Positions 56,435-58,408 of a DNA stretch of 64,000 nucleotides are shown one piece after another. Below the pieces are notes generated by a model, which was not told where the DNA came from, ran no database searches, and was given only the letters and a program-made list of their open reading frames with translations. The stretch covers positions 868,001 through 932,000 of the forward strand of contig NZ_CP012915.1 in the NCBI RefSeq assembly GCF_001315015.1. The letters are read 5' to 3'. Source of the DNA: Azospirillum brasilense (GTDB lineage Bacteria; Pseudomonadota; Alphaproteobacteria; Azospirillales; Azospirillaceae). The number at the start of each line of letters is the position of its first letter. The first letter of the stretch is position 1. The translations under genes were made by a program, and so were the position numbers.

Positions 56435-58408
56435 TCACACCGTCGCTTCGGACTCCGGCGCCAGTTCGGCGGCGGGCAGCAGGCGGCGCACGGTCAGGCA
56501 GACGATGTCGCCGGTCTGGCCGCCCGGACCGACATGGGCCTCCACCGCGCGCAGCAGCAGTTCGGAGCGGTCGCGCGCCGACAGGCCGCGACCCTGGTGC
56601 AGGACGGCGGCCAGACGCTCCTCGCCGAACGGCTCGCGCTGGGCGTTCACCGCGCGCAGCACGCCCTCGGTGCACAGGAACAGCGTGTCCTCCTGCTCCA
56701 GCCGAGCCACCGCCTCGCCGTAGGGGATGCCCTTGCGCACGCCCAGCGCCGGGCCGCCGGCGTCGGCCAGGGTCAGGACGCTGCCGTCCGCCCGGATGCG
56801 GCAGGGCGCGCGGTTGCCGGCGCTGGAATGGCTGAGCGCCCCGGTCTCACGGTCGTAGAGGGCGACGAAGGCGGTGGCGAAACCGTCGAAGGGGCTCTGC
56901 CCGCACAGCCGGTCGTTGGCCGCCGCCAGGATGGCCGCGGGGGTCATGCCGGGCCGGGCCGCCGCCTCGCGGATCGCGCCGCGCACCAGCAGCATCAGGA
57001 AGGCCGCCGGCACGCCCCAGCCGGACACGCCGGCCACCACCAGCAGGCACTGGCGCTCGTCCAGTTCGATCACGTCGTAGAAGTCGCCGCTGACCGCCGG
57101 ACCGGGGACCAGCAGGCCGAAGAACTGGCTGTCGCGCCCGGCGGGAAGCTGCTGCGGCAGCAGGTTCGCCTGCACGTCGCGGGCGGCGCGCTGCTCCTCC
57201 TCGATCAGATGTTCGGCGGCGGCCAGCTTCTCGGTGCGGGTCTCCAGCTCGGCCGTGCGCATCAGAAGCTGGGCGTCCAGCGTCTCCTCGCGGTAGGACG
57301 CCTCCAGCGCCATGCTGCGGAAGACGCGGGCGAGGCGGCCCATCTCGTCGTTGCGCTCCATCGCCTCGTTCAGGGTGAAGGGGTTGAAGCGCCCGGCCTC
57401 GACGGCGGCGACGGCCTCGCCCAGCCGCTCGATCGGAGCCATCTGGCTGCGCGCGAAGCGGACGGCGCCGTAGACGCCCGCCGCCAGGGCGAGCAGCCCG
57501 ACCAGCACGCCGATCTTCACATGGCGCCCGACCACCGAGGACAGGTCCTCCGCCGGCAGGCGGACCACCGCGATGCCCGCCCCCTGCCCCGCCACCGCCG
57601 GCACCGGGGCGAAGGCGGTCAGCCGGTCGCCCTCGCGCAGAAGACCGGTTTCACCGGCCGCCGCCGCGGCCTTCGCCGCCTCGATTGCCCGTTCCGACAG
57701 CGGTCCGGCGCTGGGGCCGGTGGCGTGCACGGCGAGACGCCCGTCGCGCTCCAGAAGCCACGCGCCCTCCACCGTGCCGCCGGCCAGCAGGGAGGCCATC
57801 ACGCCGTCCACCCCGGCCTTGCGGGCGATGTCGCCCAGCCGGCGCACGTCGGCGCCGACCTGGACGATGCGCGGCTTGTCGACGCCCGCCACACCGGCGA
57901 ACTTCATCAGCTTGCCGCCTTCGGTGGCGGCGTCGGTCACCACCTTCTCCGGCGCGCGGTTCAGCAGGCCGTAATAGGGCGCCTGGCGCGGCTGCGCACG
58001 GGCGTCGGGGCCGAAGGTGATGTCGGGGCCGGGGATGTTGTGCAGATAGGCGCGGCCCCGGTTGTCGGTGACCCAGATCTCGTCCGGCCCGCCGCCATCC
58101 GCGACGGCCTTCAGCCGGTCGGTCACCGCCTTGACCGGCGCCTTGCCCGCCTCCATCACCGCCACGAGGTGGGCGGCGAGGGTCGCCTCCGACAGCAGCC
58201 GGTCGCCCAGAAGCGCCTCGACGTCGCGCGGGACCTCGCGCGCCAGCGTGGCGGAGCGGGCCAGCAGGGTCGCCGCGCCGCGGCCATCCGCTTCCACCCG
58301 CGTCTGGATCGCCGAATGGGTCGTCCAGGCCAGCAGAATCGTAACCAGCGCCACCGCCAGCGTCACCAGCCCGGAGATCAGGAGGACCAAACGCCCTTGA
58401 AAGGTCAT
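56435..58408 (-). CDS. Membrane HAMP-SpoIIE protein, PP2C-like phosphatase with degenerate metal site
   Basis: 657 residues: N-terminal helix (LVLLISGLVTLAVALVTILLA), a periplasmic sensor of about 250 residues, a second helix (IGVLVGLLALAAGVYGAV), a HAMP linker, a coiled coil, and a C-terminal SpoIIE/PP2C domain (about 420-645). The first metal site is normal (SGDFYD, near 439). The DVSGHG motif reads AGVSGWG (near 456), TDG reads TEG (near 577), and DDIT reads GDIV (near 634). Three of four metal-binding acids are therefore changed. It may be a pseudophosphatase or signalling relay. No RsbV/RsbW partner is next to it. Confidence 0.9.
   Translation of the reverse strand: MTFQGRLVLLISGLVTLAVALVTILLAWTTHSAIQTRVEADGRGAATLLARSATLAREVPRDVEALLGDRLLSEATLAAHLVAVMEAGKAPVKAVTDRLKAVADGGGPDEIWVTDNRGRAYLHNIPGPDITFGPDARAQPRQAPYYGLLNRAPEKVVTDAATEGGKLMKFAGVAGVDKPRIVQVGADVRRLGDIARKAGVDGVMASLLAGGTVEGAWLLERDGRLAVHATGPSAGPLSERAIEAAKAAAAAGETGLLREGDRLTAFAPVPAVAGQGAGIAVVRLPAEDLSSVVGRHVKIGVLVGLLALAAGVYGAVRFARSQMAPIERLGEAVAAVEAGRFNPFTLNEAMERNDEMGRLARVFRSMALEASYREETLDAQLLMRTAELETRTEKLAAAEHLIEEEQRAARDVQANLLPQQLPAGRDSQFFGLLVPGPAVSGDFYDVIELDERQCLLVVAGVSGWGVPAAFLMLLVRGAIREAAARPGMTPAAILAAANDRLCGQSPFDGFATAFVALYDRETGALSHSSAGNRAPCRIRADGSVLTLADAGGPALGVRKGIPYGEAVARLEQEDTLFLCTEGVLRAVNAQREPFGEERLAAVLHQGRGLSARDRSELLLRAVEAHVGPGGQTGDIVCLTVRRLLPAAELAPESEATV

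Follow-up and report, generated by a model that had tools for sequence, protein, structure and literature searches.

A putative transmembrane pseudophosphatase of the SpoIIE/PP2C fold in the genus Azospirillum

Among the described proteins closest to the one analysed here, SiaA of P. aeruginosa, whose phosphatase domain has been solved (6k4e), has the same HAMP-SpoIIE plan and carries all four acids of the PP2C site. The SiaA site residues named in the accessible passages of PMC7647112 are D457, D474, C475 (a backbone ligand), G477, D600, G601, D604, and D653. RssB is a response regulator in which a receiver domain is followed by a PP2C-like domain; according to the accessible passages of PMC5468089, its adaptor function does not require phosphatase activity, a switch is proposed to couple input to binding, and the PP2C allosteric switch is proposed to be able to outlive catalysis. 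In the same passages SpoIIE D628, to which SiaA D474 corresponds by motif position, is a predicted M2 ligand. TAB1 and PHLPP2 are conserved eukaryotic proteins with domain plans different from that of the protein described below, and they likewise combine a PP2C fold with lost metal acids (accessible parts of PMC13358185 and PMC12002173). A search of the open-licence PMC literature yielded no paper that deals with this protein or with a membrane-bound pseudo-SpoIIE of bacteria, and no passage on inactive members was found in the accessible part of the bacterial PP2C survey PMC12088040. The protein is of a known kind in an unusual setting, i.e. a putative bacterial membrane-receptor PP2C pseudoenzyme whose intact form survives in sister species, and its evolutionary series is unusually clear: the intact, altered, and domain-less orthologues allow a direct test of the proposal that the switch outlives catalysis. 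A profile score alone would label the gene a phosphatase.

The gene lies in a window of 64,000 nucleotides of A. brasilense (genome G000, contig C2, 868001-932000), which is the whole stretch of DNA analysed. It is a single open frame whose translation (P0001, here the window protein) is arranged in the order of transmembrane stretch, putative dCache-like sensor, second transmembrane stretch, HAMP, and SpoIIE/PP2C domain (Table 1). The hydrophobic stretches were placed by hydropathy at about residues 7-29 and 298-320; Pfam SpoIIE (PF07228) matches residues 451-642 with 128.3 bits, the cut-off being 25 for this model as for HAMP, and no receiver domain was found in the Pfam scan. The helix between HAMP and the PP2C fold stands at the position of the switch and dimer helices of SiaA and SpoIIE and by homology may have their role (PMC5468089 and PMC7647112, accessible passages). 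The window protein was rejected as a SiaA orthologue: the SiaA equivalog model NF038263 matches residues 297-641 with 111 bits against a cut-off of 700, siaBCD neighbours are absent from the ten window genes scanned, and another gene of the same genome is closer to SiaA. No SiaB-, SiaC- or SiaD-like gene was found among the ten window genes scanned, which include the M48 peptidase, cytochrome b561, GDSL autotransporter, Usp, and DnaJ genes beside the window gene. RssB is both its best PDB sequence match and its best Foldseek match, but the window protein is membrane-bound with a HAMP domain, scores 51.3 bits against a cut-off of 700 with the RssB model NF045505, and reads AGVSGWG where DVSGHG is retained in the solved RssB of P. 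aeruginosa. The window protein is a member of the SpoIIE/PP2C fold family that is neither SiaA nor RssB nor, judged by its residues, an active PP2C.

Table 1. Features of the window gene (positions in the window; residues of the window protein)
Feature	Position	Strand	Evidence
Whole gene, 657-aa TM-sensor-TM-HAMP-SpoIIE, putative class A pseudophosphatase	56435-58408	minus	translation, Pfam
Periplasmic sensor, dCache-like by fold, residues 30-297	57518-58321	minus	Foldseek on model
Second transmembrane stretch, residues 298-320	57449-57517	minus	hydropathy
HAMP domain, residues 318-367	57308-57457	minus	PF00672, 31.7 bits
Helix leading into PP2C fold, residues 368-425	57134-57307	minus	AlphaFold helix 355-416
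SpoIIE/PP2C fold domain, residues 426-642	56483-57133	minus	PF07228, VIA
D442 (SiaA D457), kept, GAC	57083-57085	minus	alignment, codon read; Asp in 40/40 altered genes
G460 (SiaA D474), lost, GGC	57029-57031	minus	alignment, codon read; Gly in 40/40, four codons
E581 (SiaA D600), conservative change, GAG	56666-56668	minus	alignment, codon read; D 21, E 18, G 1 of 40
R585 (SiaA D604, third-metal shell)	56654-56656	minus	alignment; R 27, Q 5, H 4, K 3, N 1 of 40
G633 (SiaA D653), lost, GGC	56510-56512	minus	alignment, codon read; Gly in 40/40, three codons

The columns of the catalytic site were taken from the phmmer alignment to 6k4e, in which the residues named for SiaA fall on the expected columns of the window protein under one constant offset (362); beside the positions in Table 1, V461 corresponds to C475, G463 to G477, and G582 to G601. 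The four acids D457, D474, D600, and D653 of SiaA are thus D, G, E, and G in the window protein, and the set of metal-coordinating acids required of an active PP2C is incomplete. The original prediction had read the motifs SGDFYD, AGVSGWG, TEG, and GDIV on the minus strand, with which codons and translation agree, and the alignment to SiaA puts the changed residues on its metal-acid columns. Its statement that three of the four acids are changed holds literally for the window sequence and overstates the third position, at which 39 of 40 altered genes have D or E, so that the firm losses number two instead of three. It proposed to look for the same changes in orthologues, and both glycines are shared by 40 of the 45 genus genomes, more than chance would give; since 40 genomes agree, an assembly error behind the altered site was ruled out. 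At least one catalytic motif is mutated or absent in the window protein and in these 40 genomes, which is the residue-based mark of a pseudophosphatase of the PPM family, and by its residues the window protein fits the description of such proteins in the accessible part of PMC13358185. Outside the genus the motif-2 Asp is present in all 54 relatives of a set that was chosen partly by its motif-1 pattern and consists mostly of Chloroflexota; simple patterns for motif 3 and motif 4 failed in 4 and 5 of the 54 rows, some of which were shortened by the match range.

Two readings would leave some chemistry to this site. In one, which is very improbable, the protein is an active phosphatase in which D634, invariant and adjacent, stands in for the lost D653 equivalent; D634, however, aligns to SiaA D654 and is Asp also in SiaA and in the intact class B genes (see below), the strand expected for the last motif is predicted at residues 635-642 (AlphaFold), and nothing replaces D474. 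In the other, which we consider improbable, metal use has changed, and one metal near M2, held by D442 and the V461 carbonyl and perhaps by D634 or E581, would serve in binding a phospho-ligand or in slow hydrolysis. Since D442 and the backbone of V461 are still there, M2 could bind a single metal; D442 and D634 are each fixed in 40/40 altered domains, and the accessible passages of PMC12002173 give a single Mn in M2 for TAB1 and a single Zn assigned to M2 for PHLPP2. The equivalents of D474 and D653 are gone, however, the D604 position holds R, Q, H, K or N across the 40 altered domains (K is also found in one intact relative, L129), and according to the accessible part of PMC13358185 members of the family lose their activity when any one of the metal-coordinating residues is mutated.

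The survey covered the 45 genomes of the genus among 82 genomes of the family, with a profile built from 24 orthologues. The gene is present in 45/45 genus genomes, and the remaining 37 family genomes gave partial matches only, in the SpoIIE or HAMP part. The states at residues 442/460/581/633 are DGEG in 18 genomes, DGDG in 21, DGGG in 1, and DDDD in 2 (G017 and G014); the draft genome G030 has one copy, broken before motif 2, and in G023 and G032 the SpoIIE domain is absent at loci linked to the window gene by their neighbours. The 40 altered domains include that of G044, whose frame has a break within the second transmembrane stretch (L128:7450-7750; a real break or an assembly error), so an unbroken full-length gene is found in 41 of the 45 genomes (39 altered and 2 intact). 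Gly460 and Gly633 are fixed in all 40, with codons that vary, and G460, G633, and D442 are also invariant in alignment A1 of 23 named orthologues. The two intact orthologues, L127 (G017) and L129 (G014), are similar over the full length (47% and 41%) and carry all four acids. The sensor-HAMP proteins at L130:6148-7401 and L131:6019-7185 stop shortly after HAMP and have no output domain, and tblastn at E up to 10 found no SpoIIE remnant 3' of the two domain-less genes.

A TopoIB gene lies downstream of the intact G017 gene and likewise in G044 and at L020, an altered locus of the A. oryzae type; at L020, L127, and L128 it is accompanied by a GST-type gene upstream, although these GST-type genes, matched by different Pfam models, are perhaps not the same gene. 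Cytochrome b561 lies downstream of the intact G014 gene as it does in the window (tblastn, 54% identity), the domain-less G032 gene has both b561 and TopoIB downstream, and the domain-less G023 gene has DnaJ and M48 upstream. Given these neighbours in common, the intact, altered, and domain-less loci are most likely one gene, and the intact G017 and G014 genes at linked loci set the polarity of the change. At the soli, rugosum, canadense, and brasilense-type loci the gene is flanked by M48 and b561; none of the neighbours is kept throughout the genus, so none points to a partner, and the search for an operon partner was dropped. STAS and HATPase genes occur in the window genome, some of them beside response-regulator SpoIIE genes (C1:512-526 kb), and were set aside as candidate partners because nothing links them to the window gene.

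A species tree was built from RpoB and Rsh for 22 genomes of the genus, with 7 genomes as outgroup (G055, with an rpoB fragment, was left out). G017 branches first, followed by G014 + G032 (95), G023, and then a single clade holding all 18 sampled altered genomes (SH-aLRT 97), the deepest nodes within the genus being weak (68 and 77). The tree of Rsh alone has the same order, with 81/51 above G017, 93/90 for G014 + G032, 100/98 for G023 and the rest, and no more than 90/74 for the clade of altered genomes. In the sensor-HAMP tree, made without G044, G014, G017, G023, and G032 are not resolved, and the other 40 form one group at 100. The site and domain states require three changes on the species tree, with which catalysis lost once, in the ancestor of the main clade, is consistent; the simplest reading is a single catalytic loss and two separate deletions.

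The altered domain is under purifying selection. In the SpoIIE part dN/dS (Nei-Gojobori) was calculated for 17 pairs: the seven from the brasilense clade give 0.06-0.15 and the remaining ten 0.08-0.40, with 0.4 reached between more distant pairs, a range like that of the sensor. Over 21 pairs from seven genomes holding both genes, mean identity is 73% for the altered domain vs 87% for intact class B, so the constraint is real yet weaker than in class B. A PP2C fold is predicted to persist: the AlphaFold model of the SpoIIE domain (38-row alignment) has a pLDDT of about 90, and VIA gave Z 27.8 to 3ke6_A (Rv1364c) and Z 27.0, with rmsd 2.5 over 242 residues and 27% identity, to 6k4e_B (SiaA). 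The sensor modelled alone has a pLDDT of 70.8; its best Foldseek match is 3lid_A (E 3.5e-8), and the 50 matches listed, with query TM 0.25-0.38 and rmsd mostly at or above 10, are mostly ligand-binding domains of kinases and chemoreceptors (e.g. vpHK1S-Z8, DctB, TlpQ, PctA), which we take to be dCache folds. On this ground the sensor is called dCache-like with moderate confidence.

It is unlikely that the SpoIIE domain is vestigial, i.e. that the pathway became dispensable, catalysis was lost, and the fold is in slow decay while the sensor-HAMP part holds the remaining function. The domain is absent without a tblastn trace in two species at linked loci and the frame is broken in G044 and in draft G030, so the domain is not indispensable; the strongest evidence that its role is not essential comes from the two species without it. 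The faster evolution relative to class B and the drift of the third acid among D, E, and G also suit decay. A decaying domain is hard to reconcile, however, with dN/dS well below 1, with two lost positions that are invariant glycines under varied codons, with full-length unbroken genes in 41 of 45 genomes, and with motifs kept among orthologues that are 64-98% identical to the window protein. The view that the protein is a pseudophosphatase and not decaying, as put forward in the original prediction, is supported for most of the genus (the same substitutions in 40/45, purifying selection, predicted fold); two species are without the domain and two copies are broken, which the single sequence could not reveal. 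Of its further remark that sensor and HAMP are intact, the HAMP half is confirmed by the Pfam score; an intact sensor is suggested by conservation and by the moderate-confidence model.

The reading that we favour, with somewhat better than even confidence, is that of a transmembrane pseudophosphatase receptor that arose when catalysis was lost once, in the ancestor of the main Azospirillum clade, with the altered domain kept under purifying selection in most species and a partner-binding output. The site is changed alike across nearly the whole genus, with two intact and two domain-less forms beside it, and binding, not phosphate removal, is probably how the protein signals. A ligand would be sensed by the periplasmic dCache-like domain, and the change would be relayed through the second transmembrane stretch, HAMP, and the long helix, as the architecture of SiaA and SpoIIE suggests. 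The PP2C site, which in sequence is without two of the acids holding the two-metal centre, would hydrolyse no phosphate. As its output the protein would bind a partner in a regulated way; this partner, most likely of the type once dephosphorylated by the active ancestor, e.g. a STAS-type antagonist, would be held or shielded. RssB, in which a switch may couple input to binding, can serve as the model, and by this likeness a binding output is plausible (PMC5468089, accessible passages).

Seven SpoIIE matches over the Pfam cut-off were found in the window genome: the window gene and a class C gene are clearly altered, P0004 has no third acid, and the other four have all four acids. The class C gene, also of the HAMP-SpoIIE type, lies on the same contig outside the window (G000:C2 about 1120661-1122523; L184:1162-3051) and reads DGSFYD, GQVSGGG, CNGG, and VDRL. 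Motifs were read in the best 30 of 43 matches to the class C profile, the remaining 13 scoring at most 260 bits; among these 30, class C was found in 21 of the 82 family genomes and in three genera, and no acid stands at any of the four positions in 21/21 genes (19 in the genus, G057, and G001). The same profile also matches class B, which is intact in 9/9 rows read, and class C and intact class B occur together in one genus genome only. The SpoIIE-domain tree, used solely for the grouping of classes and the number of changes, has long branches with 19 of 47 forks open; classes A (the window gene), B, and C each form a group, and the altered state needs two changes. Class C is a second membrane pseudo-SpoIIE of an origin separate from that of the window gene. 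The chances seem even to us that Azospirillum and its near relatives have at least twice (classes A and C) turned membrane SpoIIE phosphatases into non-catalytic receptors, which would form a transmembrane pseudo-PP2C class reading signals by binding alone, with a series of intact, altered, and deleted forms in one genus.

Just upstream of the class C gene, on the same strand, are two long frames with no Pfam match (L184:3180-5998), perhaps in one operon with it. P0004 (L187:8625-9815; G000:C1 about 520624-521814) is a response-regulator SpoIIE protein with STA in place of TDG, a third and milder site loss. The HAMP-SpoIIE gene of the window genome that is nearer to SiaA (375 bits, cut-off 700) retains the four acids of the site. 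A kinase of the SiaB family (212 bits against a cut-off of 85) is encoded 2.3 kb beyond it; between the two, in the region L185:6286-10794, lie a response-regulator-like frame and another frame.
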